DNA of 64,000 nucleotides from Chromobacterium haemolyticum DSM 19808 (GTDB lineage: Bacteria > Pseudomonadota > Gammaproteobacteria > Burkholderiales > Chromobacteriaceae): contig NZ_JONK01000017.1 of NCBI RefSeq assembly GCF_000711885.1, positions 1 to 64,000 of the forward strand. Direction: 5' to 3'. How positions within the stretch are numbered: the first letter of the stretch is position 1; each line of letters begins with the position of its first letter. A program made the translations under genes and the position numbers. Below the pieces are notes generated by a model. It did no database searches. It was not told the DNA's origin and was given only the letters and a program-made list of their open reading frames with translations. This document shows, piece by piece, positions 28,172 through 43,612 of this stretch.

Positions 28172-28173
28172 GC

Positions 28174-28178
28174 CCTGC
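28174..28178. repeat. Target site duplication, tns-proximal side
   Basis: CCTGC immediately before the TGTAGGGA end of the transposon; the same five bases follow its other end at 41492-41496. Five-base duplications are the rule for Tn7-type transposition. Confidence 0.9.
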
Positions 28179-28230
28179 TGTAGGGAGGCAAAATTATTGA
28201 CAACTCAAGGCAAATAAATTGCAACTCGCT
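28179..28230 (+). repeat. tns-proximal transposon end (Tn7R-equivalent) with TnsB-type sites
   Basis: The terminal 8 bp TGTAGGGA match the other end exactly. A TnsB-like site GCAAAATTATTGACAACTCA lies at 28188-28207, and a weaker relative, GCAAATAAATTGCAACTCGC, 22 bp further in (28210-28229). This close spacing resembles the overlapping TnsB sites of Tn7R. Confidence 0.75.
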
Positions 28231-28300
28231 CCAAGTCGATAAAAAAGCATTCCATCAAAACCCCAACGGCAAATTCAATGGCATGCCGTATCAAAAATAC

Positions 28301-28334
28301 AACACAGAATAGATTTCATCTGTTCTGTGTTTTT
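28301..28334 (+). terminator. Terminator-like hairpin inside the transposon end
   Basis: A 9-bp stem AACACAGAA/TTCTGTGTT, a T-G wobble, then AGAT/ATCT around a TTC loop, followed by a T run. It reads in the direction of msrB transcription and would stop read-through from msrB into the transposon. Confidence 0.7.
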
Positions 28335-28835
28335 CATTTCAACTCAACAGCAGAATAAAAAGCAAAGCCTGCCGACTACCCCGATATCCGATCTCCGATT
28401 TACTCCTCAGTAACCCATTGAAAATTACCTATTATCCTTTCGCAAATCCGGAATCACTTTCAGATAAAAATTCCGAAATCTAGAAAAGCATCCATGGCAA
28501 AAATTGGCTCAAGCTCATCCTGGAGCCATCTTTTTCATCCACTCACCAAAATTCCATAATCATAATTTTTCGTAGAATATAGTTTCTACGGAAAAACAGA
28601 AGCTTAGGAAGGATTTAAACTAAAAAATTACTATCACCTCGCTAGGTCGGAGGCTAGAATTTAGAGGACATGCAGAAAAAACATGAAAGGAGAACTTGCG
28701 TCTAGATAGCAAAAAGGACACCCCTTAAGAAAGAAGTGCCCCTCTTAGCCAGTGTAGGGTGACCCACACGATGCTTATATATAAACCGTCGCTGGTTTCA
28801 GTATCGTTGAACGCCCCCCCACTGGTCAAGCTCCC

Positions 28836-28899
28836 CGCACGTCTTTTTTCCCTGTCTCGAGCCTCGAGATGGAAACGTGCGCCCTAAAAATCTTAGGAG
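28836..28899 (+). promoter_or_regulatory. Structured leader of tnsA with partly masked ribosome-binding site
   Basis: Outer stem CGCACGT/ACGTGCG (28836-28842 with 28875-28881) encloses a second stem TCTCGA/TCGAGA. Just after it, CCTAA (28883-28887) can pair with TTAGG (28893-28897), which contains most of the AGGAG that serves the tnsA ATG at 28906. This could dampen translation of the transposase operon. It is an inference from pairing only. Confidence 0.5.
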
Positions 28900-28905
28900 A
28901 TCGAC

Positions 28906-29577
28906 ATGGCCAGTCAAATCTATGAAGTTTTAGTTGCCGCTGTTTGCAAACTACTTAATTCCACTCACCCTGTCCGTGATGCATTCCACAAGCACGGAAA
29001 TGGCTCCTATCGCGGTATGTGCCCGTCAAACAAAGGGATTGATGGCTGCATACCCTATGAGTCCGGGCTAGCCCGCGACGCGATCAGGCTTTACAACTTA
29101 GCGCCCGAGGTCATGCTCATCATTCCGGAGCCGTTCGTTCTGGACTACGAGCTCGATGGTGAGGCCCGTAGCTATACACCAGATTTTTTGTTGCACCTAC
29201 GCGACGGTAGACGCGCTGTTGTAGAGATCAAGTATCAAGCGGAAGCCAACACCCCTGAGAACCAACGCCGTTTCCAAGTGATCGCGTCACTGATCGAATC
29301 CGCAGGTGGACTTTTCGCAGTCTTGTCCGAAAAAACGCTGCGAGACAAGGTCTTGCTGCACAACCTTGGGTTGGTTGAAAGCCAGCGTCATCGACATATC
29401 CCACTAACAGCCAAGGCCGCAATGCTTCAAATCCTCAGAGAGGGCCCCGCCTCACTGGAAGCCCTCAGTAGCGCAGCGGCAGATGTCCAACTGGTCTATG
29501 CCGCCATTGCTCAGGAATGGCTTGCAGTTAATCTCAGCAAACCGCTGCGTCCCAGCACCTTGATCCGGGGGATATGA
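28906..29577 (+). CDS. tnsA: Tn7-type endonuclease TnsA
   Basis: 223 residues. The restriction-like nuclease that cuts the 5' strands at transposon ends so that the element leaves by cut-and-paste. The catalytic residues of the family are visible: Glu52 in YESGLARD, Asp93 in SYTPDFLL, and Glu107-x-Lys109 in VVEIKYQAEA. The C-terminal part (about 170-223) is a small winged-helix-like region that would contact TnsC. AGGAG lies before the ATG. The stop overlaps the tnsB start (ATGA), so the two subunits of the heteromeric transposase are coupled. Tn402/Tn5053-type elements lack this gene, which places the element with Tn7. Confidence 0.93.
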   Translation: MASQIYEVLVAAVCKLLNSTHPVRDAFHKHGNGSYRGMCPSNKGIDGCIPYESGLARDAIRLYNLAPEVMLIIPEPFVLDYELDGEARSYTPDFLLHLRDGRRAVVEIKYQAEANTPENQRRFQVIASLIESAGGLFAVLSEKTLRDKVLLHNLGLVESQRHRHIPLTAKAAMLQILREGPASLEALSSAAADVQLVYAAIAQEWLAVNLSKPLRPSTLIRGI

Positions 29578-31391
29578 TCATGTCACTCCAGATCATTCTG
29601 AAAAGCCCGAAAGGGCTTTCCGACCAAGAACCACCGGTCAGTGCTCAACAGCGCCCATTCGACAGCCATTCCCCTCTCGCCCAAACCTCAGCTTTACGGC
29701 GGCAGGCCTATACTGATGCCTTCAATGCCCAGCATAACCCTTGCTACACCAAACATAAGCTGGAAGCATTCATACAAGACATTGCCCAACACATCGGGGA
29801 TCGCAACCCACCCTCTAGCAGCACGCTATATCGATGGCATACGCGCCTGCAGAGCAGCGGAGGCAACCCCTTGGCGCTCGTGCCTAACTTTGACCGCCGC
29901 GGAGGAAAAGGCCCACGAATGGAAGGCGAGTTACTCCTCTTGGCAGAGGCCGTAATTCAAACAGCCTATTTGACGTTGAAGCGCCCATCCATCCGCATCA
30001 CCTATGAAAAGCTGCTTATCCAGATTGCTGCTCACAACGATCAAGCGCCTGCGGATAGACAACTCAAGGCCCCCTGCTACGATACCTTCCGACGGCTGAT
30101 TCGCAATCAACCCCAGTATGAGGTCGATCTTGCCCGCTACGGACGCGAGTACGCCCGCAAAAAGTACCGGCATAGCAGCATCACACCTGCCACGATGTAT
30201 CTGCTGGAACGCGTCGAAATTGACCATACGCCGTTCAACATCTTCGTCATCGATGAGGAGTCGATGCTGGTACTGGGGCGCCCGTACATCACGGTGATCA
30301 TCGATTGCCACACTCGTATGATCCTGGGCTTCTACTTGTCGTTCTCACCGCCCAGCATCGAGGCGGTGCTGCGTTGCTTGCAGCACGCCATCGGCAGCAA
30401 AGACTATGTGAAGGAGCGGTATCCCGACATCCAGCATGACTGGCCATGCCATGGTATACCCACCACCGCTGTCGTCGACAACGGATTGGAGTTTCACTCC
30501 CAGGACCTGCTGCGCGCCACTTTCGAACTGGGCATCAACTATCAGTTCTGCCCGCCCCGCACACCCTGGTTCAAGCCCATGGTAGAGCGATCGCTACGGA
30601 CGCTGGCGGAACAGTTCGCCCATCAGTTGCCTGGCACCAGCTTTGCCAACTGGTTCGACCGCTACGGCTATGACCCATTGAAGGAGTCCATCGTCACCTT
30701 GTCAGAGATGGTCCACGCTCTGCACATCTGGATCATCGACATCTACTCCCAGACCTACCATCGAGGTCTGAAGCAGACGCCGTATGCCGCCTGGCAACGC
30801 GCGGCGGAAATCGTCACGCCTCGCACCATCGATCCAGATCGCTTACGACTGATACTCTCCAAGCAGGCTGAACGGGTACTAGGTCATGCCGGCATTGAGC
30901 TGCACGGACTGCGCTACAACAGCAAAGATCTGCTCCCTTGGCGCAAACAACTCGGCGACCGCATCAAAGTGCAGGTCCGTTTCGATCCAGACAACCTGGG
31001 CTCGATATTCGCCCTCCACCCGCAGACCAAAGAGGCCATGCTCGTTCCCTGCCTCACCCCAGACTACGCCGAGGGACTGCAACTGCACCAGCACAAGCTG
31101 ATTCTGGCCGCGATGCGCAAGGAAGGCCTGGCATCCGCCGATCCGCTATCGCTGGCTCGGGCCAAGGTGCACATGCAGGAGGTGGTCGGCCAATTGCTGC
31201 AAAGCCGTAAGCTGGCCGATCGCAAACGCGCTGCTCGGGCCAAAGGTGCGCACTCAAGCAAGGTGATGACCACCGGCAAGCTGCCTCCTACGATTTCAGA
31301 GGACGCGGAACTCCCCCCGACAGACAGCTGGTCACCTCCCAGTACGTTGCCCGTGCTCACGCACGATCCGGAAGGAGATGACCATGAGTGA
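29574..31391 (+). CDS. tnsB: Tn7-type DDE transposase TnsB
   Basis: 605 residues. Binds the transposon ends and performs 3'-end cleavage and strand transfer. N-terminal helix-turn-helix DNA-binding regions (about 40-150) precede an RNase H-like integrase core with Asp216 (VEIDHTP), Asp302 (VVDNGLEF) and Glu338 (PMVERSLRTL), a DD(35)E arrangement. A Mu-transposase-like beta barrel follows (about 440-510), then a charged tail that would contact TnsC. The end binding sites with consensus near GCARARTTnnTGAAAA are its likely targets. ATG overlaps the tnsA stop; a second ATG at 29580 is an alternative. Confidence 0.94.
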   Translation: MIMSLQIILKSPKGLSDQEPPVSAQQRPFDSHSPLAQTSALRRQAYTDAFNAQHNPCYTKHKLEAFIQDIAQHIGDRNPPSSSTLYRWHTRLQSSGGNPLALVPNFDRRGGKGPRMEGELLLLAEAVIQTAYLTLKRPSIRITYEKLLIQIAAHNDQAPADRQLKAPCYDTFRRLIRNQPQYEVDLARYGREYARKKYRHSSITPATMYLLERVEIDHTPFNIFVIDEESMLVLGRPYITVIIDCHTRMILGFYLSFSPPSIEAVLRCLQHAIGSKDYVKERYPDIQHDWPCHGIPTTAVVDNGLEFHSQDLLRATFELGINYQFCPPRTPWFKPMVERSLRTLAEQFAHQLPGTSFANWFDRYGYDPLKESIVTLSEMVHALHIWIIDIYSQTYHRGLKQTPYAAWQRAAEIVTPRTIDPDRLRLILSKQAERVLGHAGIELHGLRYNSKDLLPWRKQLGDRIKVQVRFDPDNLGSIFALHPQTKEAMLVPCLTPDYAEGLQLHQHKLILAAMRKEGLASADPLSLARAKVHMQEVVGQLLQSRKLADRKRAARAKGAHSSKVMTTGKLPPTISEDAELPPTDSWSPPSTLPVLTHDPEGDDHE

Positions 31392-32358
31392 GCGTTATAC
31401 GCTGGCAGACCTTCGACGGGCGGAGCGGATCCAGATCCTGCATCCACAATTCAGCACCGCGCTGGAAAGGCTGTCGCACAGCCATGCCCTGTCGCGCCAA
31501 GGCGCCGCTGCCAGGCATCTGCTGCTGATTGGCGCATCCGGCACCGGCAAGACCTCGGTGCTGCACAGCTTTGCCAAACAGCACCCCAGCTACGAAACGG
31601 AGGAAGCAACGATACGCCCGGTGGTGTATGTCCAAGTGCCTGCCCACCCGACCATCCGAGGCCTGGCGGAGGCCATTCTGATCGCGCTAGGGGCCGGCGT
31701 TCAGGTCCGGGGCAGCACCGCGGAGAAGACCAACCAGATCGTGCAGCTGATCCGCGGCGGTAAAACCGAGGCCTTGCTGCTGGATGAGTTCCATCACTTC
31801 GTCGACGCCGGCCGTAGAACCTTCGAGGAGGTCACCGAGTGGCTGAAGACCCTGATCGATCAGATCGCCATTCCCACGGTACTGTCCGGCCTGCCAGAGT
31901 GCGAGTGGATCCTGCGCTCCAACGAGCAGTTGCGCCGTCGCTTCGCCGCCCGCGTGGCGCTGACGCCGATCGGTTTCTCCTGCAACGAGGACAAGTCCTT
32001 GTTCCGCGACGTCGTCCATGCCTGGGACACGCAGATCAACCAAGGACGCCCAACCTGGGGACTCGCCGAGTGGGAGTGCGTCAAGCGCCTGCACTATGCC
32101 AGCAATGGCCTGCTCGGCTATCTCTCCAAGGTGATTCTGGGGGGATTGGAATGCTTAATTGAACAGGATCAGCACAATCTCAACCAAAGTATTTTGGCCA
32201 TGGCTTTCTCCAACTATGTCTGGCGAGACAGCCCGCCTGAGCTGAATCCCTTCGATACCAACTTTGTATTCCGACGCCTGAACCAGCCTGACGAGCCATT
32301 CGAGCCCACCCGGTTCTCCCGCCGGAACGCGCCCAAAGCCGCCATCCCCGCGTTGTAA
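31384..32358 (+). CDS. tnsC: Transposition ATPase TnsC/TniB
   Basis: 324 residues. AAA+ regulator that links target recognition by TniQ to TnsA/TnsB. Walker A is GASGTGKT near residue 38, Walker B is ALLLDEFHHF near 120, and an arginine-finger region (NEQLRRRFAARVALTP) follows. The size is closer to TniB than to the 555-residue Tn7 TnsC. I chose the ATG at 31384, 8 bp inside the tnsB end, because GGAG sits at good distance; an ATG two codons earlier is possible. A perfect 10-bp hairpin lies just downstream, before tniQ. Confidence 0.92.
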   Translation: MSERYTLADLRRAERIQILHPQFSTALERLSHSHALSRQGAAARHLLLIGASGTGKTSVLHSFAKQHPSYETEEATIRPVVYVQVPAHPTIRGLAEAILIALGAGVQVRGSTAEKTNQIVQLIRGGKTEALLLDEFHHFVDAGRRTFEEVTEWLKTLIDQIAIPTVLSGLPECEWILRSNEQLRRRFAARVALTPIGFSCNEDKSLFRDVVHAWDTQINQGRPTWGLAEWECVKRLHYASNGLLGYLSKVILGGLECLIEQDQHNLNQSILAMAFSNYVWRDSPPELNPFDTNFVFRRLNQPDEPFEPTRFSRRNAPKAAIPAL

Positions 32359-32364
32359 CCCCAT

Positions 32365-32389
32365 GAGGATCGCCTTTATGGCGATCCTC
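32365..32389 (+). promoter_or_regulatory. Perfect hairpin between tnsC and tniQ
   Basis: 10-bp inverted repeat GAGGATCGCC/GGCGATCCTC with a TTTAT loop and no T run after it. It lies 7 bp after the tnsC stop and 14 bp before the tniQ ATG. It may stabilise the upstream message or act as a partial terminator that keeps tniQ expression low. Confidence 0.5.
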
Positions 32390-32403
32390 CAACGGAACAC
32401 ATC

Positions 32404-34251
32404 ATGACCTCCCCATTACTGCAGATCCGCCCCAAGCCGCAGGCGGGCGAAAGTCTGCTGGGTTATTGCCTGCGCCTCGGGCACGCCAACGGCTACCCAG
32501 GTCAGACCTGGCTACCACTATTTGTCAAAAAACACGATGCCGCCTGGCAGAATCTAACCCGGCTGACAGGCCATGATCAGACTAGCCTAGCATGCCTGAC
32601 AGGCCCGGCGCCGGCCAGCCTGGGCCGTCACAGCTACCATCGGCTCGGTCTCAAGGTGACGTACTGGAATCACCATCACCGACGCTGGTGCCCCGTCTGC
32701 TTGGCCGAGCACGGCATCTGGCAAACGGAATGGCTGCTAACCCTGCAAATAGCCTGCCCCACCCACCGCCTGCTGCTACGAGAAAAATGCCCCGGCTGCG
32801 ACAAACTCATCCGCTGGCATCAAGGCACCATGTTTACTTGCAGCTGCGGCGCCGACTTGCGCCATGCAGCCACACGCCCAGGCACCGCTGCCGAGCTGGC
32901 ACTCGCCAAACTGATTACTCAGACCATACGGCCGCTGGTCGGCCTGCCCGACCTCGCTGTCAGCAACATCCCCACCCCGCCGGAATTAGATCATCTACAC
33001 CCGGCGCAACTATGCGACCTGCTTTGGTTCTTTGGCGCCTATGCATCGCACCGTCCCAACACCCGGCCACAGAAAATAGCCGATCATGGCCGGATCGAAA
33101 TCATTCAGCCCTATTTGCAGTTGGCCATGCAGATCGCCCAGCACTGGCCGCAACGCTTCCATCAACTGTTGGAGGAGTACACACTGCCCATATCCGGCAA
33201 CACGGCATCGCTGCGGGTGTACTTGCGAGAAATACATCAGGCCCTCTATCGGCTGCTGATCCATCCAGAGTTGCTATTTGTACGGGAAGAATTCGAGCGT
33301 TATGTCCATGAGCGATGGCCGGATAAACTGATCCTGCAGCAGGATCTGCGTCAGGCCCATCCCATCATTAGCTTGGCCAAGGCCGCGGAACAGCTCAATC
33401 TCTCAAGAGGCGCGGTACACAAGCTGATAGAAAGCGGCACAATCAAAGGCTGCCAATCCTCATCGGCGAAAGGGAAAACGACTTGGATGGTAGAACGCAG
33501 TTCGCTGGATGCCTACGCCCGCAGTGAGCATGGCACGCTGACTATTTCGGAGGTGGAACGCATGCTGCGCATCACCCCCAAACGGATCCGTTTGCTGATC
33601 GAAAGTGGTCTGCTGCAGCCACTGCCTCACGATAAGAAACGCACCCGGTGGTGCTTTCAGCTAGAAACCATTAACACTTTTCTGAAGCAGCTGAACCATG
33701 GCCTGATCAGCCCAGAACCGGACAATCCAGAACTGCTATCGGTGTGGGAAATCACCAAACGGTGGATGCAAGGCAGCGAGCCCTTCTTGGCGGTCATCCA
33801 CGCCCTGCAGGATGGCTCGCTGGAAGTGGTAGGCCGCAACCCGGCCGACCATGGCCTCCGCGCGTTGCTGGTTTCCCGACAGCAATTCACGCTCTGGCAT
33901 AAGCAATACCGCCGCTCCCACGGTTTCTTCACGGTCAGGGAGGCGGCAACATCCATCCGGATGGACGTCAACCTGCTCTATCACCTGATTGGGACTGGGC
34001 ATGCCCACGCCAGCCGGCAACAATATGGTTATGAGAAGCGGATGCTCCTGGGGCTGGAAGCCAAAGAGCTGGAACGGCTGACCAACGACTACATCTGGGG
34101 CGAACGCTTGGCGGAACAGATCGTTAAACCTGTACACAAGGCCGCCGGGCACTTGATCAAACAAGGACTACACCCCCTCTGCGGGCCAACGGTAGACGAC
34201 GGGAAAGAGTATGTGTTCAGGCGTACCGATGTCGCAGCAAAAGTGACTTGA
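32404..34251 (+). CDS. tniQ: TniQ/TnsD-family target selector with tandem helix-turn-helix repeats
   Basis: 615 residues, longer than Tn7 TnsD (508). The N-terminal TniQ domain begins LLQIRPKPQAGESLLGYCLRL and has paired zinc-finger cysteines: CPVC (96, 99), CPTH (118, 121), CPGC (129, 132) and CSC (146, 148). The C-terminal half contains at least three excisionase/MerR-like helix-turn-helix units: about 320-360 (SLAKAAEQLNLSRGAVHKLI), about 378-400 (TISEVERMLRITPKRIRLLI) and about 505-530 (TVREAATSIRMDVNLLYHLI). This array would read an extended DNA target; by position, the 3' end of msrB. The ribosome-binding site is weak, in line with a low-level regulatory protein. It is the only TniQ in the element. 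Confidence 0.92.
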   Translation: MTSPLLQIRPKPQAGESLLGYCLRLGHANGYPGQTWLPLFVKKHDAAWQNLTRLTGHDQTSLACLTGPAPASLGRHSYHRLGLKVTYWNHHHRRWCPVCLAEHGIWQTEWLLTLQIACPTHRLLLREKCPGCDKLIRWHQGTMFTCSCGADLRHAATRPGTAAELALAKLITQTIRPLVGLPDLAVSNIPTPPELDHLHPAQLCDLLWFFGAYASHRPNTRPQKIADHGRIEIIQPYLQLAMQIAQHWPQRFHQLLEEYTLPISGNTASLRVYLREIHQALYRLLIHPELLFVREEFERYVHERWPDKLILQQDLRQAHPIISLAKAAEQLNLSRGAVHKLIESGTIKGCQSSSAKGKTTWMVERSSLDAYARSEHGTLTISEVERMLRITPKRIRLLIESGLLQPLPHDKKRTRWCFQLETINTFLKQLNHGLISPEPDNPELLSVWEITKRWMQGSEPFLAVIHALQDGSLEVVGRNPADHGLRALLVSRQQFTLWHKQYRRSHGFFTVREAATSIRMDVNLLYHLIGTGHAHASRQQYGYEKRMLLGLEAKELERLTNDYIWGERLAEQIVKPVHKAAGHLIKQGLHPLCGPTVDDGKEYVFRRTDVAAKVT

Positions 34252-34404
34252 TCGCCAGCCTTTCGTCGGATTGCAATATTTCCAATTGGTACAGTGTCTA
34301 GAGTCTTACCCCCTTGTTTGACACAGAGTTTTTACCGTACCGATCAACTATGATGTTTTTTTATCAATAGCTTTTGTTAAAAATCCGATTTTGCTAAGGA
34401 AATC

Positions 34405-34689
34405 ATGATGCCTGACTACCCGGTAATAGAAATCTCTGTTCATGTTCCGGCTCAAATGGCGGATAGAATCGCCCAAATGGCAAGTCACCTGGGACGCTCT
34501 CAAGACTGGATCATGCAACAGGCGCTATCTGCCTGGATAGAACGAGAGGAAGAACGCGAACGTCTTACTCAAGAAGCACTTACCGATGTCGATCTTGGTC
34601 AGGTAGTCAGCGACCAAGCTATAAATACCTGGGCGGAAAGCCTAGGAACAGAAAGTTCAATTCCATTACCAAGGAAAGTGGGGCAGTAG
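34405..34689 (+). CDS. Ribbon-helix-helix (CopG/antitoxin-like) protein
   Basis: 94 residues. A ribbon-helix-helix fold is suggested by the beta strand IEISVHVPAQMADRIAQMA followed by SHLGRSQDWIMQQALSAWIERE; the C-terminal half is acidic. Such proteins are usually antitoxins or autoregulators of a toxin pair. No RelE/ParE-like or PIN toxin gene follows: the next 230 bp hold no credible reading frame, so it looks like an orphan antitoxin or a transposon regulator. AAGGA precedes the ATG pair (34405 and 34408). Confidence 0.72.
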   Translation: MMPDYPVIEISVHVPAQMADRIAQMASHLGRSQDWIMQQALSAWIEREEERERLTQEALTDVDLGQVVSDQAINTWAESLGTESSIPLPRKVGQ

Positions 34690-34868
34690 AACCCCTTCCA
34701 AATTTATTGGGCAATACAAGCTGTGTGCACAGGTACATGGAAAGTCTGTCACTTGAGCCGAACTGACCTTTACTCTTTATGAAAGCTGCACCTGACCTTC
34801 CGGTCTCCGTGGCATTACAAGAGAGAAAATTCGTTTAACATGCCGTAGCATAGCAAAATTTTATTTAA
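34690..34868. other. Gene-free stretch after the ribbon-helix-helix gene
   Basis: No gene is supported. This is where a partner toxin gene would be expected; none is seen in any frame. Confidence 0.6.
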
Positions 34869-34909
34869 ATTGTATCATTTATATGATACAATAATAATTA
34901 TTGTATCAT
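34869..34909. promoter_or_regulatory. Three-half-site operator upstream of the regulator-methyltransferase operon
   Basis: ATTGTATCAT at 34869-34878 and its inverted copy ATGATACAAT at 34883-34892 form a perfect 10-bp palindrome with a 4-bp spacer. A third half-site ATTGTATCAT follows at 34900-34909 in direct orientation. The layout resembles the controller boxes that time restriction-modification genes. Confidence 0.75.
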
Positions 34910-34927
34910 TATTGCGAGACATTTATT

Positions 34928-35314
34928 GTGAATAAATTCTGCGTGAGCAATAAAGAAATTAGTAATTTAGTTACATTGGAGCTCAAAAAAAGACACTGGA
35001 GCATTCGCAACTGCGTTTCATTTTACAATGCCAAAAGGAAGCTAGACTCTTCTTACACAAGCCTCCCCAATTTAAACAAAGACTTCCTACTTAGAGTAAA
35101 AAACAATAAGTTTGACGTAATGAACGAGCGCATCGTCAAACTTTGCATTTTCTTAGGCATTGACTTAGAGCAAGCACCTAATAATTCTTCACCATTACGA
35201 GAAGAGTTTGATAGAGTTGAAGCCCTACTAAAAGGACAGCCACATCTAGAAAGGCAGCTTAGCGCTATGCTGAATAGCATAGCAGACCTAGCGACTTGCG
35301 CGAGGGGTAAATAG
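34928..35314 (+). CDS. Probable transcriptional regulator of the methyltransferase operon
   Basis: 128 residues, AT-rich coding. The sequence is basic in the first half (LELKKRHWSIRNCVSFYNAKRKLD) and fits a helix-turn-helix protein of the controller/Xre type, with VKNNKFDVMNERIVKLCIFLGI as a probable DNA-binding helical region; I cannot assign a named family. The frame is open to a TTG at 34901, but that codon lies inside the third operator half-site, so the GTG at 34928 behind GCGAG is more likely. The methyltransferase ATG follows 2 bp after its stop, so the pair is coupled. The upstream palindrome is its likely operator. Confidence 0.65.
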   Translation: MNKFCVSNKEISNLVTLELKKRHWSIRNCVSFYNAKRKLDSSYTSLPNLNKDFLLRVKNNKFDVMNERIVKLCIFLGIDLEQAPNNSSPLREEFDRVEALLKGQPHLERQLSAMLNSIADLATCARGK

Positions 35315-35316
35315 AA

Positions 35317-36291
35317 ATGCGTAGCTATAAAATAGTTGAGCTATTTTCAGGAGCTGGTTTAATGGGGGGGGGATTTAAAGAAACTGGGTTTCAAAGTATA
35401 TTTGCAGCAGAACTAGACCCCAGAGCTGTCTCAACTTACAATTACAATATTGAACCGGTAGCAGAAGTTTGGGATGTGAACATTGTAAAAGAAAATTTAG
35501 AATATGACGTCTTAGTTGCAGGTCCGCCTTGTCAAGGGTTTAGCACCTTGGGAAGAAGAGACCCCAAGGACAAAAGAAATTCTCTATCCCTTTGCGTATA
35601 TAAGTGGGCTGAAAAGCATGCGCCGAAAGTAGTTCTCATAGAGAATGTACCTCAATTTTTAGATTCGAAATACTTCACACTGCTGAAGAAGAAATTCTCA
35701 AAATTAGGGTACGCTTGCGTAACTTGGATTTTAAACTCAGAGCACTATGGTGTTGCCCAAAAGAGAATTCGAAGTTTCACAATTTTTTCCACTATTGGTT
35801 TACCAAAAAAACCTGAAGCGAGTGAAGTTCGTCTAACCCTACGAGATGCGTTCCATGGACTAAGCGATAAAACCACAGGCAGTGACTATCATATTTCTCC
35901 AGAACCAACCGACATTGCCCTTGCCAGAATGAAATTAATACCTCCCCTAGGTGACAAGAGAGATATACTAAGCAAAGCTCCTGAGCTTTGCCCTCCAAGT
36001 TGGTTTAAAATGGGTAATCAAGCTGTTGATGTATGGGGGCGAATGGACTGGGAGCGACCCGCAAATACGTTAAGATGCTCTTTTCAGTCCGCATCTAAAG
36101 GTAGATATATCCATCCTCGTGAAAATAGAGTAATTTCTTTACGAGAGGGTGCCAGAATACAAGGCATTCCAGACACATGGATATTTAGTGGAGATAGAAC
36201 TGCCATTGCTAGGCAAATCGGAAATGGCGTTCCCGTACCCCTTGCCAGCGCAGTTGCCAAATCAATAATGCATTTACTTATTTCATCGTGA
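35317..36291 (+). CDS. DNA (cytosine-5-)-methyltransferase
   Basis: 324 residues. All main C5-methyltransferase motifs are present in order: I (VELFSGAGLMGGGF, SAM binding), IV with catalytic Cys72 (GPPCQGFSTLG), VI (Glu109-Asn-Val), VIII (QKRIR, 148-152), a short target-recognition region, IX (RPANTLRC) and X (QIGNGVPVPLA). It is compact and complete and should be active; the recognition site cannot be read from sequence. It is transcribed with the small regulator upstream and converges on the GHKL-nuclease gene. No ordinary restriction endonuclease gene is nearby, which makes the GHKL-nuclease the best candidate partner. Confidence 0.95.
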   Translation: MRSYKIVELFSGAGLMGGGFKETGFQSIFAAELDPRAVSTYNYNIEPVAEVWDVNIVKENLEYDVLVAGPPCQGFSTLGRRDPKDKRNSLSLCVYKWAEKHAPKVVLIENVPQFLDSKYFTLLKKKFSKLGYACVTWILNSEHYGVAQKRIRSFTIFSTIGLPKKPEASEVRLTLRDAFHGLSDKTTGSDYHISPEPTDIALARMKLIPPLGDKRDILSKAPELCPPSWFKMGNQAVDVWGRMDWERPANTLRCSFQSASKGRYIHPRENRVISLREGARIQGIPDTWIFSGDRTAIARQIGNGVPVPLASAVAKSIMHLLISS

Positions 36292-36325
36292 CTCTGTCGA
36301 TTGAAATAAAAATAAAAATTCCCAT

Positions 36326-36359
36326 ATAGCTACCTAGCCACAAAAAACTAGGTAGCTAT
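36326..36359. terminator. Bidirectional terminator between methyltransferase and GHKL-nuclease genes
   Basis: 12-bp stem ATAGCTACCTAG/CTAGGTAGCTAT with a 10-nt loop. A-runs before it give a U tract on the minus strand, and TT precedes an A run on the plus strand, so it works best for the minus-strand gene but lies where two converging transcripts meet. Confidence 0.75.
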
Positions 36360-36376
36360 TTAAAAACAGCACAACC

Positions 36377-38551
36377 CTAGCTTAACTCTTCATTCAATCT
36401 TTTCTCCTCAGCCTCAAATATTTCAATCCCATTTTTGTGTACTTGCTGAGCTCTAGTTATTAAATCTAACACATCAAATATATGTATTGGTGAATTTGGT
36501 CCCATCTCTGAAATCTTCTTCAAAAGATGTCGTTTCCCCGTACTCTTTGTATCTTGCGCCGGCTTTGTTCCTATTAAAAATCCTCGAACTCTTACGGCCC
36601 TGCCTAATTTAGCGTTTAAATACTCTTCAGTTTTAAAAATATACTCTTCCAACTGAGTCAGATGATCAAATTCCAGCTCAATCCCTGGCGATTTTAGTTC
36701 TACAATAACAACATCATCAGGACTGGGTTGATTTGCTGCCAAGAAAACTAGATCCGGCCGTGTTCTATCATCATCTGAAATAGCATTACTTACCTCACTA
36801 TCAATTTCTAAAACTGCATTTAGAGTCCGGCACAACTCACCCATAGGTTTGTCACTTGTCAAATATGAAGCAAATTCCGGCTGAATTAACCACGGAGATT
36901 CCTTAAAAAGACCATGAAGTTCGTTTTCATAACCCTTGCCCTTTCTATTTGACATAGAATCAAGATGTAATTTATGCAGCGCCCCAATCGCTTTAGATCT
37001 TCCTCTGTATAGCTTTAACAAATCACTTGTTTCCATCCTAGTCAATTCAACCATTGAATGCGCAAGAACTGGAATACTCTGAGGATCAATTTCCAACTCA
37101 ATTAATTTAGTTAAAACCTCACTAGCATTTACCGCTTGTAAAATTATAGGCGCCATCTCCCTATATGTTTCACTACTAATTCCATGCTCACGGCCGATCA
37201 CATTCAAAATTTGCTTTGCAGCACGCTGTGATTTTTTATTGACATGGCTAAGCGGGCTCAAAATACCCCTGCTATAATCATCATTATCAATCGCAATGTC
37301 TATCTCTTTATCTCTATATTTATAATGTTCAGCCAACCCCTTTTTCATTAACTCAGTCACAACATCAAACAGAGAATCCACAACTGGATTATCTTTATTA
37401 AGCCCCTCTCGACTTGTAACCACAAAATCATTATCAAACTCATCTATCGCATCTGCAATTACAATACACTCCATATAATCTTGACCGTGAAAATTATGAA
37501 CCCCCGAGTGAAGCTTTAGAAGACTTGGCCCATGAGTTATACGGCCATGAGAATATATTCTTGCACCTCTCCTCTCCGCAGGAAGACTTGATCTTCTTTT
37601 CTTTTCTTCTTCAGTCGCGCCATGGTCATTAGGCCTGGCTCTAAATCTTATAATATAATCTATGCTAAAAGTACTATCCTCATCCACTTTGACATTGGCA
37701 GAAGCTAAATTATCAATAGAATGTCCAGCTGGATAGTTGTATTCCCAATCCATCTCCTCCTCTTCCACCTTAGCACCATTAAGATTTATAGAGAAATCTT
37801 CATCGAGTATGCAAAAAGTCCTTGAGAGAACGTCATTTATTCTCTTTTTACTAGCTTTCATTGAATCGCAGCGAAGCTGACTCAATGATATTATTGTAAA
37901 ATGATCTTCTAAACTTAATCCATCCCTGTACTCTGCCTTAAACCTGGCATTTGCAAGGTCATTGTACTTCTTAATATTAATATAATCCATTTCAAAGGTT
38001 GTCGAATAACTCTCTCCAGCTCTTTTACTTGTTACTTTGATATGCTCTGCCGCACCAAATCCTGCAAGCTTTCCGACACCTTTTCTTCCCATAACACGGC
38101 GCCTACCCGACTCTGTATATATTTTGGTTGGCCTACCATTCTCATCATCTCTTCTATTTCTGGTAATCGAAAGAAAATAATCTTGAATCTCCCTCGCAGT
38201 CATACCATGTCCATCATCAAATATCTCTATCGTTATATCAGACGGAAGTGGATCATACACTGCAGATATATCCTGTCTCCTCCCCTCTTTTTTCTCTTTT
38301 TTTGCATTTTCTCTAACTATCTTTTTTGCGCTATCAATTCTGTCAAAATCCATGTGTATCGAGACATTTTTTGCATCTGCATCATAAGCATTCGCCACAA
38401 ACTCGGCCAAACACTTTGCTACCGATGAGTACATATTATGTCCCATAGTTTCCAACATACCAGAGTGTATTTTCATATAAAAATCTTCTGGCTTTTCTAT
38501 GACTGATTGACTCTCACCATCACTTTGAGAAACAGAATATAAATTGCCCAC
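36377..38551 (-). CDS. GHKL ATPase fused to a PD-(D/E)XK nuclease-like domain
   Basis: 724 residues. The N-terminal GHKL (HSP90/MutL/MORC-type) ATPase shows the N box LAEFVANAYDADAKNV (48-63), the G1 box DDGHGM (112-117) and the G2 box GRKGVGKLAGFG (155-166). The middle (about 200-420) continues the transducer-like fold. The C-terminus (about 545-724) looks like a restriction-type nuclease: an ESPWLIQPEF entry motif, Asp600 (RPDLVF), Glu618-x-Lys620 (IVELKSP) and Gln633 (HLTQLEEY). The start is GTG behind AGAGG. It converges on the C5 methyltransferase. I infer a defence effector or the restriction partner of that enzyme, cutting DNA under ATP control. The fusion is not one I can name; Shedu-type nucleases share a similar C-terminal motif set. 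Confidence 0.82.
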   Translation of the reverse strand: MGNLYSVSQSDGESQSVIEKPEDFYMKIHSGMLETMGHNMYSSVAKCLAEFVANAYDADAKNVSIHMDFDRIDSAKKIVRENAKKEKKEGRRQDISAVYDPLPSDITIEIFDDGHGMTAREIQDYFLSITRNRRDDENGRPTKIYTESGRRRVMGRKGVGKLAGFGAAEHIKVTSKRAGESYSTTFEMDYINIKKYNDLANARFKAEYRDGLSLEDHFTIISLSQLRCDSMKASKKRINDVLSRTFCILDEDFSINLNGAKVEEEEMDWEYNYPAGHSIDNLASANVKVDEDSTFSIDYIIRFRARPNDHGATEEEKKRRSSLPAERRGARIYSHGRITHGPSLLKLHSGVHNFHGQDYMECIVIADAIDEFDNDFVVTSREGLNKDNPVVDSLFDVVTELMKKGLAEHYKYRDKEIDIAIDNDDYSRGILSPLSHVNKKSQRAAKQILNVIGREHGISSETYREMAPIILQAVNASEVLTKLIELEIDPQSIPVLAHSMVELTRMETSDLLKLYRGRSKAIGALHKLHLDSMSNRKGKGYENELHGLFKESPWLIQPEFASYLTSDKPMGELCRTLNAVLEIDSEVSNAISDDDRTRPDLVFLAANQPSPDDVVIVELKSPGIELEFDHLTQLEEYIFKTEEYLNAKLGRAVRVRGFLIGTKPAQDTKSTGKRHLLKKISEMGPNSPIHIFDVLDLITRAQQVHKNGIEIFEAEEKRLNEELS

Positions 38552-38941
38552 TACATTAACCTCTCACGGGATTATTAACTTAATCAGAAGGTAAATACCT
38601 GCTCGATAAATACTTATATTCCACCAATTCTAATTACTATTCCTACTGGCACCCCATAAAATAGACTGAATTATAACATGCCAAATAACCACAATTATGC
38701 CACAATAATATTTCGATTGCAAAACAAGAAATTTAGTATAAAATCATTTTACCTAAAGCAACTGAATTTTCTATTATTAACGTCAAACGAGGAAAGAGTG
38801 AATCGAACCTGTTTTCATAGAATTAAGCAGAAAATCAAATGAAATCAGATAATCTAGAGCCGTTTGTAGTGGATGAGCCTGCAGCACGGAGCCACATCCA
38901 TAGCAAGTGTGCGGCATCGACAGCAACGGGAGTTATCACGA
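38552..38941. other. AT-rich divergent promoter region
   Basis: About 390 bp between the divergent GHKL-nuclease and KAP genes. It is AT-rich up to about 38,860, where composition changes to that of the KAP gene, suggesting a joint between two cargo modules. No gene is supported. Confidence 0.55.
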
Positions 38942-41185
38942 ATGTTTCGCTGTTTTAAATCAAGAAGAAAAACGACGGAGCCACGACAGGCGACGACTGC
39001 CTCCAAGCAGCCCCCTTCCACCGGAACTGCCAACGCCACGATCACTCCTCCATCGAAGCAGTTTGTATCTGACGAGCCGATTTCCGGCGCAGACCAGGAT
39101 CGCTTTAATCGGGCACCATTCGCCTCACGAATTGCCCACACTATTGCTCTCAGACCCGACCCATCAAGCTTGGTGGTCGGCGTTTTCGGGCCATGGGGTG
39201 ATGGCAAAACCTCAGTCCTGAAGATGATGGAAGAAGAACTTCAACGCCATGACTATGTAGTAGTCCTGCATTTCAATCCATGGCATTTCCAGTCTGAGGA
39301 GCAGTTGATCCGTGGCTTCTTTGCTACTCTGGCAGATGGCCTCGACAGAAAGCTGAACAATGCCAAAGAGAAAATTGGCAAGGTCCTGAAGGACTACGGC
39401 TCGCTCCTATCAATCGGTTCTGTCGTCTTGGGAGGAGCGGTTACCCTTCGACCAGGGGACGCCGCAAAGGGTGTTGGAGAAGCCATGTCCAACGTCGGTT
39501 TGGACGAACTCAGATCTCGCATCGAGACATTCCTTGCGGAGAGTGGAAAGCGTGTCGTTGTTCTTGTCGACGATATCGACCGCCTCGACAGGACCGAGAC
39601 CCACTCGATGTTCAAACTAGTAAAGCTATCCGCCGGCTTCAATCACACGTCTTATGTACTGGCTTTCGATGATGAGGTGGTCGCTGCCGCGCTCGGCGAG
39701 CGCTACGGCGCGGGCGGCCAGCAAGCCGGTCGCGCATTCTTGGAAAAAATCATACAGGTACCTCTGCATCTGCCACCGGTTGATACCGTTAGTCTTCGTT
39801 TGGTGGCCTTCGAAGGAGTGGAGGCAGCGTTGTCCATGGCGGGCATCGAGCTCAAGCAGACACAGGTCGACGCCTTCATCCGCCATTTTGTTGACGGCCT
39901 GGAACCGAGACTAAGCACCCCGCGCGTCGCAAAACTGTATACCAATGCGCTGATGTTCGCGTTGCCCTTACTAAAGGGCGAGGTCAACATTATGAACTTG
40001 ATGCTGGTTGAAGGCATTCGGGTTCTTTATCCAGGTCTCTACGCAGCGATCCGAGACAACCCTTCGATGTTTCTTGAGTCTCATCGCGAGAACCGCAGTA
40101 ACGGCTTTAATCAAGCACCTACCCCGTTTGATCAGTTAGTGGATGGGGCTCTGCCCAGTTTCACAACTACTGAACGCGAAACGATCAAGGACCGCCTGCT
40201 TCGCCCGCTGTTCCCGAGGACCGGCAACATGCAGTACGGTCACGAATGGGACAACATTTGGGCCCAAGAGCAACGTATCTGTGCAGCGGGGTACTTCAAG
40301 AGGTACTTCTCATACTGCGTTCCAGACGGGGATGTCTCGGACGCCAGCGTGATTGCGCTCATGGAAGGGGTGGTCGATGCCGATGACGAGGGAAAGCGCG
40401 CGCTGATCGAAACGTTCGGCAGGAGACGGTCGATTGACAGGCTTGTTAGCGTGTTGCGACAGCGGTCGGAGCAGCTGCCGCCAGAGTGTGCTGGTCCACT
40501 TGCGCGAGCTATTGTACTCAGCGGAGGCCTTTTCCCTCAGGAGCGCGGCATGTCCATGCTAACGACTCGGATGCAGGCAGGTATCCTTGTAAAACAGCTC
40601 ATGAAGAGGCTTCCTGCAGGGCCAGTCCGTTGGGCAGAAATTAAAAGCGTTCTCGAGGACGCTACTCCTCTCCCCTTCGCTGCTGAGTGCATCCGCTGGC
40701 TGCGTCACGACGCTGAGGGCGAAGACGACCGGAACGTCGTAGAAGCGGATGACAACCCTCGCATGGAGAGCATCATTGGGCAGCGGATTGCACGGGCGCA
40801 CGATGAGCAGCCCGTATACGTTCAGTTCGGACGTGATGCGCCGTCGTTGCTATGGTTGTGGAACAGGAATGACGCGGAGGGCTCGCGAGTCGCGCTGCGA
40901 CACCGCTTCGATCTGCATCAGGAAGAGGTTGATGCCTACCTAGATTGCTATGTCGGCGAAGGCTGGGAAATCGAAAGTGGCCTGCCGGTTCGAGGTAGGT
41001 TCGAACGACGACACTTCGATGAAGTTGACCGGATTGTCGGAGCGGAATACGTGATGGAGAACTTGGCCAGACGTTATGGCGACGATCTCGACAGCCCCCA
41101 GGAGTACCCTCCACAGGAGTGGCCGTTCGCTCGAAAAGTTGCACACCAATTCGTCCTGATCTATCGACATGTCCGGCAGTCATAG
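38942..41185 (+). CDS. KAP-family P-loop NTPase
   Basis: 747 residues. KAP NTPase domain at about 50-400 with Walker A GPWGDGKT (83-90), the FNPWHF motif typical of KAP proteins (111-116) and Walker B VVVLVDDIDRLD (206-217). A weak hydrophobic segment (155-169) sits where other KAP proteins carry membrane spans inserted in the NTPase domain. The C-terminal 350 residues are helical and unfamiliar. F-plasmid PifA, which excludes phage T7, is a KAP protein, so a phage-defence role is reasonable. The frame is open from 38873, but GGAG is well placed only for the ATG at 38942. Its GC content is clearly higher than that of the neighbouring methyltransferase and GHKL genes, so it was probably added separately. 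Confidence 0.85.
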   Translation: MFRCFKSRRKTTEPRQATTASKQPPSTGTANATITPPSKQFVSDEPISGADQDRFNRAPFASRIAHTIALRPDPSSLVVGVFGPWGDGKTSVLKMMEEELQRHDYVVVLHFNPWHFQSEEQLIRGFFATLADGLDRKLNNAKEKIGKVLKDYGSLLSIGSVVLGGAVTLRPGDAAKGVGEAMSNVGLDELRSRIETFLAESGKRVVVLVDDIDRLDRTETHSMFKLVKLSAGFNHTSYVLAFDDEVVAAALGERYGAGGQQAGRAFLEKIIQVPLHLPPVDTVSLRLVAFEGVEAALSMAGIELKQTQVDAFIRHFVDGLEPRLSTPRVAKLYTNALMFALPLLKGEVNIMNLMLVEGIRVLYPGLYAAIRDNPSMFLESHRENRSNGFNQAPTPFDQLVDGALPSFTTTERETIKDRLLRPLFPRTGNMQYGHEWDNIWAQEQRICAAGYFKRYFSYCVPDGDVSDASVIALMEGVVDADDEGKRALIETFGRRRSIDRLVSVLRQRSEQLPPECAGPLARAIVLSGGLFPQERGMSMLTTRMQAGILVKQLMKRLPAGPVRWAEIKSVLEDATPLPFAAECIRWLRHDAEGEDDRNVVEADDNPRMESIIGQRIARAHDEQPVYVQFGRDAPSLLWLWNRNDAEGSRVALRHRFDLHQEEVDAYLDCYVGEGWEIESGLPVRGRFERRHFDEVDRIVGAEYVMENLARRYGDDLDSPQEYPPQEWPFARKVAHQFVLIYRHVRQS

Positions 41186-41354
41186 CCGGCCGCCGCACAA
41201 GAAGCTGGCGCAGCCTCTCCAGACTAAAGGCAGTACGGTCAACCAATTCAGTACAAGTGGCAACCTACGTGCAAGAACTGCCGAAGCACAGTGACGACGC
41301 ACCTGCAACAGGCAAGGGCAACGAACGAACCCGCCAGATGTAGCCACTACCGCA

Positions 41355-41491
41355 GATTTTTTCAACAACTTTGCAGAAAAGTCAGATTTTTTCAGAAATT
41401 CTGCGTCTGTTCGGCTTCGTTGCAAGCACACAAAAATGAAAAAGCCTTGCAAGGCAAGGCAGGATGTTTTCACTAACTCTGCGTCCCTACA
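41355..41491 (-). repeat. Cargo-side transposon end (Tn7L-equivalent) with three TnsB-type sites
   Basis: Read inward on the minus strand, three related 20-bp sites are present: GCAGAGTTAGTGAAAACATC (41463-41482), GCAGAATTTCTGAAAAAATC (41385-41404) and GCAAAGTTGTTGAAAAAATC (41355-41374). The end is TGTAGGGA, identical to the other terminus. Spread-out sites here against closely spaced ones at the other end repeat the left-right asymmetry of Tn7. Confidence 0.85.
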
Positions 41492-41496
41492 CCTGC
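41492..41496. repeat. Target site duplication, cargo side
   Basis: CCTGC directly after the TCCCTACA end, identical to 28174-28178. Removing the element and one copy restores a continuous sequence downstream of msrB. Confidence 0.9.
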
Positions 41497-41588
41497 AGGG
41501 AGGGGCGTATCAAGAGAGGCTGGCTAGCGAGCCGGATCGCCGTCGGTTCCACTGCGATATGGACCCGCAATCAAAATCCGTTGCGGGT

Positions 41589-42188
41589 TCATGCTTGGCG
41601 TCCTTCCGTGATTTCGCTTAATGCTAGGTGCTGCAAGAGCATGATTGTCTTGCCGTCGACGATTTCGCCGCTTTTGACCAACTGTAAAGCGGTCCGCAGC
41701 GGCATTTCGAGCACCTCAAGATCCTCTCCCTCGTCTTCGAGGCCACCGCCATCATTTACGCGCATGGACGCGTCGTAGTCCCCCAAATAGAAATAGAGCT
41801 TCTCGGTCACTGACCCCGGACTCATGTAAGCCTCAAATACCTTGCGGATATTGCTTACGCGGTACCCAGTCTCCTCTTCCGCCTCTAGGCGTATGCGCTC
41901 TTCCGGTGTGGCGTTGTCGAGCAAGCCCGCGGCCGCCTCGATCAACATGCCGTCGTGTCCATTGACGAACACGGGCATCCGAAACTGGCGCGTGAGCACG
42001 ACATTTCCCGTGTGCCGGCAATGCAACAGGATGGTTGCGCCGTTGCCGCGATCGTATGTTTCCCTGCTTTGACGCTGCCACCTGCCGTCTCGGCGCAGAA
42101 AATCGAACGTCACCTTCTTCAGCGTGTACCAATTGTCGGAGAGTACGGTGGACTCGACGATGCGAACCCGGTCTTTCGTTGCAGCCAT
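41589..42188 (-). CDS. NUDIX hydrolase (NudK-like)
   Basis: 199 residues. NUDIX fold with the box region GLLDNATPEERIRLEAEEETGYRV at about 95-118; the metal-binding glutamates in EAEEETG are present. The overall pattern (SDNWYTLKKVTFDFLRRDG at the start and EAYMSPGSVTEKLYFYLG after the box) resembles GDP-mannose pyrophosphatase NudK. It should hydrolyse a nucleoside diphosphate linked to another group. It is divergent from a DeoR-type regulator with only about 80 bp between them, so that regulator may control it. Before the transposon arrived its 3' end faced msrB. Confidence 0.85.
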   Translation of the reverse strand: MAATKDRVRIVESTVLSDNWYTLKKVTFDFLRRDGRWQRQSRETYDRGNGATILLHCRHTGNVVLTRQFRMPVFVNGHDGMLIEAAAGLLDNATPEERIRLEAEEETGYRVSNIRKVFEAYMSPGSVTEKLYFYLGDYDASMRVNDGGGLEDEGEDLEVLEMPLRTALQLVKSGEIVDGKTIMLLQHLALSEITEGRQA

Positions 42189-42226
42189 GGCGCCTCCAGT
42201 CGACAGCTAAATATAGATAATGGTAT

Positions 42227-42262
42227 CGTGCACATTCGTGCAATATCAAGATATTTCGTGCA
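42227..42262. promoter_or_regulatory. Phased direct repeats in the NUDIX/DeoR divergent promoter
   Basis: CGTGCA occurs three times in the same orientation, at 42227, 42237 and 42257, so the copies are 10 and 20 bp apart, one and two helical turns. They lie between the two divergent starts and are the likely binding sites of the DeoR-type regulator. Confidence 0.6.
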
Positions 42263-42267
42263 AACAT

Positions 42268-43023
42268 ATGCTAACGTCACGCAGAAAGAAAGCCATCCTG
42301 GACGCGCTCGCTCGCGATGGCCAAGTGCTCGCCGGCGAGTTGAGCGTGGAGTTCGGCGTATCGGAAGACACGATTCGCCGGGACTTGCGTGAACTCGCTT
42401 CGGAGGGGTTATTGCAACGCGTTCACGGCGGCGCGTTGCCCGTTTCTCCTGCGCTCGCGCCGTTCGAGCTGCGCCGGGACATTGAATCGGCTGCCAAGCA
42501 GAGGATTGCACGGCAAGCGGCCACGATGATCGCCCCCGGGCAGACAGCAATCATTGATGGCGGCACCACGTCGGCATTGTTGGTCAAGGCACTGCCCGCT
42601 GATCTGCGGGCGACGATCGTCACGCATAGCCCAAGCGTCGCCACGGCGCTCGCCGAGCACCCTTCGGTCGAAGTCATTCTGATAGGAGGACGGCTGTACA
42701 AGCATTCGATCGTCGCCGTCGGCGCCGCTGCGATAGAGGGCATCTCGCGCATCCATGCGGATTGGTACTTCATGGGCGTGACCGGTGTTCACCCAACGGC
42801 GGGCCTGAGTACCGGAGATTTTGAGGAGGCCGCTATCAAGCGCGCGCTCGCTGCGCGCGCGGCGGAGACGGTTGTTCTGGCGTCGTCGTCGAAACTCAAT
42901 GCGGCGTCGCCGTTCATCATCGGTGAGATCACGCTCGCACAAACCATCGTCGCCGAGAAGGCCGCCGACCGGGAATTGATGAAACAGATCGAAGCAGCGG
43001 GAGTGTCGGTTGTGCGTGCGTAG
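42268..43023 (+). CDS. DeoR/GlpR-family transcriptional regulator
   Basis: 251 residues. N-terminal DeoR helix-turn-helix (about 1-60: RRKKAILDALARDGQVLAGELSVEFGVSEDTIRRDLRELASEGLLQRVHGG), then the sugar-phosphate-sensing DeoRC domain with IIDGGTTSALLVKAL and VTHSPSVATALAEHP motifs. Such proteins usually repress carbohydrate or nucleoside genes and are released by a phosphorylated sugar. No sugar operon is adjacent; the only divergent gene is the NUDIX hydrolase. Start chosen at 42268, since the extension upstream covers the repeat operators. Confidence 0.9.
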   Translation: MLTSRRKKAILDALARDGQVLAGELSVEFGVSEDTIRRDLRELASEGLLQRVHGGALPVSPALAPFELRRDIESAAKQRIARQAATMIAPGQTAIIDGGTTSALLVKALPADLRATIVTHSPSVATALAEHPSVEVILIGGRLYKHSIVAVGAAAIEGISRIHADWYFMGVTGVHPTAGLSTGDFEEAAIKRALAARAAETVVLASSSKLNAASPFIIGEITLAQTIVAEKAADRELMKQIEAAGVSVVRA

Positions 43024-43612
43024 TGCTGCCAATCAAAGCTTGCAGCCAAGGTTGCGGCAACCCGGACGGCATCTGTGCGTCGGCACATCCCTGCTCCCAA
43101 ACGCCCAAATGCCGATTGAGCCTCATGCCGGCACAAGGCCGTCCATCGAGTGATGACCAACGATCTGGCAGGTAACAGCGACTGTCTCAAACTGGCCGAC
43201 TGCCGCTATCGGACTGACCCAACCCAAGCCTATCCGGCCCCGTGCGCAAGGCCGATGCGCAAGCAACACGCAACTAGTGTGCAGTGAGGATGCCATCTCG
43301 CAACCGGGTTGCCAGGCATCGGTTTCTTTGATGTCTTCCGCATCCATCGGCATGCAGAATACAAGGACATCGCACGTGCATTTCAAAGCTGTTTTCAACG
43401 CCGCGTTGCTGAAGCGCCGTAGGCTTTGCATCACTTAGAACCTGATCACGATCTGCTACGCGTCGGCGAGACGAGGCGAAAACGGCTGAAAAAGCGGAGT
43501 GTACACACGGTATATGAGCATTTTGAATGCCGCTTTCAACGCCGTATCGCCGACGCGTAGCAGATCGTGAACAGGTTCTTAGACGAACGCAACAAATGCC
43601 GGCAGGCTTGAA
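43024..43612. other. Gene-free region, probably decayed coding DNA plus a repeat
   Basis: About 590 bp. From 43,024 to 43,437 the base usage still looks coding-like, but no frame gives a convincing protein; short minus-strand frames of 65 and 103 codons lack a recognisable start or domain. The rest is a copy of the dispersed palindromic repeat. Confidence 0.5.
43438..43578 (+). repeat. Dispersed palindromic repeat copy
   Basis: 141 bp with ends GAACCTGATCACGATCTGCT and AGATCGTGAACAGGTTC, both flanked by TTA. It differs from other copies in the centre (TGTACACACGGTATATG). Confidence 0.85.

Follow-up and report, generated by a model that had tools for sequence, protein, structure and literature searches.

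Do a gene for a C5-cytosine DNA methyltransferase and a gene for a GHKL ATPase joined to a nuclease-like domain, which converge on each other in Chromobacterium haemolyticum DSM 19808, form a restriction-modification (RM) system, and if so, is the system of a new kind? The locus lies in the first 64,000 nucleotides of the contig NZ_JONK01000017.1 (referred to here as the window), where an original prediction, made from the sequence alone, had proposed an undescribed RM-like system. The answer to the first part, which we hold with good though not full confidence, is that the two genes constitute a two-gene RM system, in which the methyltransferase would mark one short sequence and the GHKL-nuclease would cut DNA without this mark. 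A restriction system is likely because the two genes are found side by side in related loci of several bacterial phyla, and the sequence support for it consists of intact genes, the residues of the ATPase and nuclease motifs, a conserved adjacency and the co-varying divergence of the two partners. With regard to the second part, the system is a new branch of an already known kind, viz. the nuclease-fused GHKL restriction enzymes.

The gene pair and the GHKL-nuclease protein

The components described in the original prediction, viz. an operator, a small regulator, a complete C5 methyltransferase and an intact convergent gene for a 724-residue GHKL-nuclease, are all present (Table 1), and the block holding them is AT-rich as it had stated, the GC content being 0.37-0.45 per kb across 34-39 kb and 0.55-0.70 in most other kilobases of the window. 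Both the methyltransferase and the GHKL-nuclease genes are intact as read from their sequences, with a gap of 85 bp between their converging ends, and the stop codon of the regulator gene lies 2 bp upstream of the methyltransferase gene. The methyltransferase is matched by Pfam PF00145 (1e-55, with nearly the whole model covered) and, above its cut-off, by NCBIfam TIGR00675.

The GHKL motifs of the 724-residue protein (E50, N54, D57, D112xG114xG116 and R156KGxGK161) and its nuclease residues (E542, D600, E618 and K620) are each identical in all 40 aligned rows, representing the window and 39 relatives, and the proposed nuclease domain has thus withstood this comparison of sequences. In a separate nuclease alignment of 19 rows, D600 and E618 are each conserved in 18 rows, and K620 throughout; the odd row (L016) is apparently off register, and three rows are gapped at the E542 column. 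The GHKL/S5-like part was assigned by a structure model, with a structural match spanning residues 27-460, and it is similar to the MORC and the HSP90/MutL-type families. The nuclease half is predicted to have a PD-(D/E)XK fold, based upon the motifs and the secondary structure of the model. Residues 107-710 align with positions 49-643 of the 659 in the NCBIfam BbrUII/HgiDII model NF050001, i.e. over nearly its full length, and the REase_II profiles of PADLOC are also matched. The earlier statement that no ordinary endonuclease gene is present therefore has to be given up, as the GHKL protein, by its relationship to BbrUII/HgiDII and REase_II, is itself the endonuclease candidate.

In the work by Iyer, Abhiman and Aravind (2008; PMC2292703), MORC proper is defined by the S5-domain motif GhXhhpXXRhl, and the nuclease-fused GHKL proteins are placed in paraMORC3, a group consisting of a GHKL domain, an S5-like domain and a C-terminal nuclease of the restriction-enzyme fold with the residues E-D-ExK, some members of which are found in RM neighbourhoods and others standing alone. 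The first ten positions of this motif are present in 36 of the 40 rows (GARIYSHGRIT, residues 329-339, in the window protein), whereas the eleventh position in the family is A, T or S and not aliphatic. This near-MORC signature was found in none of 14 outside relatives, and the branch thus appears from its sequences to join features of MORC proper and paraMORC3. However, among 132 matches of the family profile to PDB sequences, the best 60 are of the HSP90/HtpG type, which counts against closeness to MORC.

Linkage of the two genes across genomes

In 84,980 species genomes a single scan located 47 loci, 39 of which have a C5 gene within 2.2 kb. The core set of related loci comprises 32 of these (L002-L032 and L038), which show at least 28% identity over at least 370 residues, this cut having been set after the table was seen; two loci falling outside of it (L046 and L047), neither with a C5 gene, have best segments of 29-31% identity over only about 240 residues. 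Within the core set, 29 of the 32 loci have a neighbouring C5 gene by profile search (21 convergent and 8 tandem), the gap from the GHKL frame exceeding 200 bp in three of the 29 (L014, L020 and L031), and in L027 a 58%-identical C5 fragment is seen at the contig end. Around the 32 loci there were 30 C5 matches within 2 kb (121,129 bases), two of them from the two halves of a broken L031 gene, versus a single match farther out (310,052 bases). The RM-like reading of the original prediction is supported by these relatives, most of which have a C5 methyltransferase. The proteins of L012 and L013 are identical and those of L009 and L010 nearly so. In a quick tree of 25 loci and the window, from which loci with broken or cut genes were excluded, the layout requires four changes, three of them forced by well-supported branches. 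Further, for 26 pairs the protein distances of the two partners are correlated (Mantel r 0.732), at a value exceeded by none of 5000 permutations (largest 0.343).

A number of observations weigh against a two-gene RM system and are best considered together. The C5 profile was derived from the motif-bearing frames of these same loci, and it is thus partly self-made. Two core loci (L024 and L032) are without a C5 gene; both have a shortened GHKL frame, yet the frames of L020 and L031 are shortened too and a C5 gene is present in them. Five distant relatives (L043, L044, L046, L047 and L048) lack a C5 gene, in agreement with the standalone paraMORC3 genes of the 2008 work. The Mantel correlation would also come from linked descent without function; the switches between convergent and tandem layout with the adjacency kept are a stronger argument for a functional connection. 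For the protein itself, the NF050001 score is 189.5 bits against a curated cut-off of 550; the nuclease half has no confident sequence family match (HSDR_N_2 at E 0.15), no credible PDB sequence match came from a search with the nuclease alignment, and GHKL matches (27-460) took up the whole of a structure search, with no match obtained for the nuclease half. Lastly, VcSduA, the GHKL-type Shedu protein of Vibrio cholerae, is described without a methyltransferase in the accessible part of its report (PMC12137116), so that the architecture alone does not demand one.

If the window protein were a standalone Shedu-like nuclease of the VcSduA kind, then it would sense phage without a methyltransferase and the C5 neighbour would have a role of its own. 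The order of the GHKL and nuclease domains equals that of VcSduA (PMC12137116), the five distant relatives without a C5 gene agree with this, and one relative (P0012) has an 18.3-bit match to Pfam SduA_C, below the cut-off of 27. However, the adjacency in 29 of 32 loci, in both layouts and with co-varying distances, speaks for the partnership, and in the window protein there is no SduA_C match at E 1, and none of its PADLOC matches is to a model named Shedu; this alternative is highly improbable.

Relatives were also looked for in other collections. Full-length ones were not found in 60 other genomes of the host's kin, 4 of which matched weakly and in part, and at E 1e-30 no match was found in 368 other genomes of the host's class (1/369, the own genome). 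No match was seen in phage records, nor, when the DNA of the methyltransferase was used, in genomes of E. coli. Plasmids gave 11 records, all below 60% identity, and viral contigs gave two loci, L081 and L082, in each of which the C5 gene is convergent.

Target region, regulator and transposon

The specificity of C5 methyltransferases is carried by the region between motifs VIII and IX. For 28 family members (378 pairs), after incomplete proteins (L030, L031 and L037) were dropped, identity is 0.53 in this region versus 0.52 in the core, and in three pairs with a core below 0.42 it is 0.44 versus 0.41. Because the specificity region is as conserved as the core across phyla, these sequences suggest one target common to the family in Pseudomonadota, Thermodesulfobacteriota, Planctomycetota, Verrucomicrobiota and Poribacteria. 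Compared with nine outside relatives the family means are 0.23 (specificity region) and 0.31 (core), and among these nine themselves the values are 0.31 and 0.37. No methyltransferase of known specificity close to that of the window was found, the PDB matches being of the DNMT1, HaeIII and HhaI types, and due to this no target motif is claimed. The best PDB match is DNMT1 both for the window methyltransferase and for that of L035 (4770-5930), each of which lies near a GHKL nuclease, whereas for the DISARM-like methyltransferase of L079 (15615-17339) it is HaeIII; as L035 is also best matched by DNMT1, this likeness is not special to the branch of the window.

These comparisons bear upon another interpretation, according to which the enzyme of the window has diverged from the BbrUII/HgiDII type but shares its target, GTCGAC, and the system is an isoschizomer one with nothing new. 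The alignment to NF050001 over nearly its full length is in keeping with this, as are the characterisation of M.HgiDII as a 5mC enzyme for GTCGAC (PMC5867850) and L035, one of the nine outside methyltransferases, which shows no drop, being equally similar to the window enzyme in its specificity region and core (0.26 and 0.26). Against it stand the score of 189.5 bits, the fall of the specificity region below the core outside the family as opposed to their equality within it, and the near-MORC signature (36/40 rows versus 0/14 outsiders, among which the true HgiDII enzymes are not included). The outside relatives compared are also all below the NF050001 cut-off. We consider this interpretation quite unlikely.

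The 22-bp operator sequence, TTGTATCATTTATATGATACAA, is symmetric at 10 of its 11 position pairs; when single bases of the 150-base upstream stretch were shuffled, this symmetry was reached in 3 of 2000 shuffles, for a length that was picked after the palindrome had been seen. Both copies of the palindrome are directly upstream of the regulator start, which alignment with seven homologs places at GTG 34928, the listed frame starting at TTG 34901. These seven homologs were obtained at E 0.001 among 16 database candidates, and when five of them were used as queries, only the window locus (L001) and L081 were matched among the loci then collected. One homolog (P0244), identical to the L081 frame, is followed, in the same arrangement as in the window, by convergent C5 and GHKL genes. 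L081 is 61% identical to the window in the GHKL protein, 71% in the C5 enzyme and 53% in the regulator, and upstream of its regulator homolog there is an in-register 22-bp palindrome with 17 of 22 positions identical to the window operator, in which position 5 has C in place of A, with a matching change at position 18.

From its homologs and structure model (mean pLDDT 77.6), the regulator is predicted to be a rare one of the XRE type. The Foldseek matches of the model to XRE-type regulators have a probability of about 0.99 but E values of 0.1-0.6, with none below 0.1, and are weak; C.Esp1396I and C.BclI are among them (E 0.3-0.6). The name controller, given earlier to this protein, is plausible by the predicted fold, with these weak structural matches, and by the operator before its own gene. 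Upstream of the nuclease gene the best operator-like site has 16 of 22 positions, compared with 22 and 19 at the regulator; since no good copy of the operator precedes the nuclease gene, nothing points to the nuclease being controlled directly, and the simplest reading of the sequence is that the regulator would act on the operon formed by itself and the methyltransferase.

In addition to what the original prediction had described, the block belongs to the cargo of a larger element. This element is a Tn7-like transposon, with TnsB, TnsC and TniQ genes, matching ends with repeats, and a target duplication of 5 bp (CCTGC, 28174-28178 and 41492-41496), inserted 7 bp beyond the msrB stop codon. 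In relatives within the genus, its left end aligns from the first base (L070 and L072) and its right end to the last base (L079).

Table 1. Positions in the window of the gene pair, its regulatory elements and the transposon carrying them
Feature	Position	Strand	Basis or remark
Tn7-like transposon, 13,313 bp	28179-41491		ends TGTAGGGA...TCCCTACA; 5-bp target duplication
TnsA, predicted	28906-29577	+	putative; named by position and order only
TnsB/TniA, predicted	29574-31391	+	Pfam rve/Mu-transpos_C
TnsC/TniB, predicted	31378-32358	+	Pfam TniB
TniQ, predicted	32404-34251	+	Pfam TniQ
Predicted operator	34870-34922	+	22-bp palindrome at 34870-34891, with a degenerate copy at 34901-34922 (spacing 31 bp)
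Small regulator, 128 aa from GTG	34928-35314	+	predicted XRE-like helix-turn-helix
C5-cytosine DNA methyltransferase, 324 aa	35317-36291	+	Pfam and NCBIfam matches
GHKL (MORC-like) ATPase and predicted PD-(D/E)XK nuclease, 724 aa, candidate restriction endonuclease	36377-38551	-	motifs

The end of msrB (window 27779-28178) is where, in several congeneric genomes, Tn7-like elements with differing cargo have inserted. Among 19 genus genomes, element sequence is found beside msrB in the own genome and at least four more (G001, G006, G007 and G009), with long flanks examined for 5 of the other 18. In G006 the same transposon core is accompanied by matches to DrmA, DrmB and a C5 methyltransferase (DISARM-like) and by an MzaA-like gene, and the related transposon of L079 (7896-17339) has DrmA, DrmB, C5 methyltransferase, MzaA-like and NERD-helicase-like genes. 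In a literature search on Tn7-like elements at msrB, none of the papers listed mentioned msrB; RM modules are reported to be the commonest defence cargo of Tn7-like transposons (PMC8649781).

This placement is relevant to a further proposal, viz. that the GHKL protein is a MutL/MORC-like repair or DNA-looping protein acting at methylated sites, in mismatch repair or modification-dependent cutting, and is not for restriction. Its GHKL similarity to MORC and HSP90/MutL-type families would suit such a role, and Iyer et al. proposed that some family members were recruited to repair (PMC2292703). However, the pair is cargo of a Tn7-like element, a related element at the same site has DISARM-like cargo, and the best NCBIfam match of the protein is a restriction-enzyme family, which makes this proposal very unlikely.

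Several other observations concern the transposon itself. In comparison of L076 and L080 with window 28906-32358, TnsA is 49-50% identical, TnsB 82-83% and TnsC 94-98%, and the lower identity of TnsA suggests recombination within the transposition genes. The ribbon-helix-helix gene after TniQ (34405-34689, +), 98% identical in L076, seems to be part of the transposon backbone and not of the RM unit. A second cargo gene (38873-41185, +) encodes a KAP-family P-loop NTPase (PADLOC PifA 233.5 bits, QatA weaker) and is likely, by these matches, another phage-exclusion gene in the same transposon. Between the transposon and a phzF-like gene (41492-43600) there are NUDIX-like and DeoR-like genes, named by eye; these were not found in the 13.3 kb examined of G013, where msrB is directly followed by phzF.

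Proposed action and relation to known systems

In the two-gene RM system that we favour, the predicted role of the C5 methyltransferase is to modify a single short sequence of DNA. Binding of ATP would close the GHKL dimer around DNA, by analogy with MORC, MutL and the topoisomerases, and this closure may gate the two nuclease domains, leading to a double-strand break at or near an unmethylated site. The predicted XRE-type regulator, encoded by the first gene of the methyltransferase operon, likely binds the upstream palindromes and would set the level of the methyltransferase, and the pair would move as cargo of the Tn7-like transposon. The ATP step, the target site and the double-strand cut are inferred from analogy with related proteins. 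VcSduA is reported to block phage, with both its ATPase and nuclease activities needed (PMC12137116); due to this, the layout of BbrUII/HgiDII with C5 partners, and the conserved linkage, restriction at an unmethylated short site is most likely.

GHKL-type restriction enzymes have been named, but little on their mechanism was found in the literature searched, and the question raised by the pair is how an ATP-driven DNA clamp serves a methylation-sensitive endonuclease. Eukaryotic MORC proteins have been proposed to derive from RM systems (PMC2292703). A compact two-gene branch, present in several phyla, seemingly with one target and mostly near-MORC, makes this proposal testable with one enzyme pair, and the cargo-swapping transposon shows a route by which such pairs move. 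It is a doubtful, though attractive, extension that the branch is a living bacterial RM family near the source of the eukaryotic MORC-type, DNA-methylation-linked silencing, which would act by ATP-driven entrapment of unmethylated phage DNA, with a MORC-type clamp fused to a nuclease, tied to a C5 enzyme whose best solved-structure match is DNMT1, and directed to one target across phyla.

The description of the system as undescribed was too strong, as it is related to the BbrUII/HgiDII restriction enzymes and to the published architecture of paraMORC3 and VcSduA; an account of this GHKL-nuclease/C5 branch was not found in the literature searched, which covered few subscription papers. The branch appears distinctive in its sequences by the near-MORC signature, the uniform specificity region, the rare regulator with its 22-bp operator, and the transposon placement beside msrB. 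The window regulator is like the RM controller proteins C.Esp1396I and C.BclI in its predicted XRE-like fold and the palindromes before its own gene, but it differs from them in having no good operator copy before the nuclease gene, and the structural match is weak. VcSduA (PMC12137116) likewise has an N-terminal GHKL ATPase and a C-terminal PD-(D/E)XK nuclease, whereas in the window branch 29 of 32 loci have a C5 gene next to the GHKL gene, and the window protein leaves SduA_C unmatched. With BbrUII/HgiDII (NF050001) the system shares a GHKL ATPase and a C-terminal part aligned nearly over the full length, as well as the C5 partner; it differs in reaching 189.5 of 550 bits and in its own small regulator, and from the outside relatives, which do not include the characterised HgiDII enzymes, it differs in the near-MORC signature and, on average, in the specificity region of the methyltransferase. 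Lastly, paraMORC3 is alike in its domain order and in the E-D-ExK residues, seen in 40/40 rows of the window family, while most members of the window branch hold, in addition, ten of the eleven positions of the motif reserved for MORC proper.

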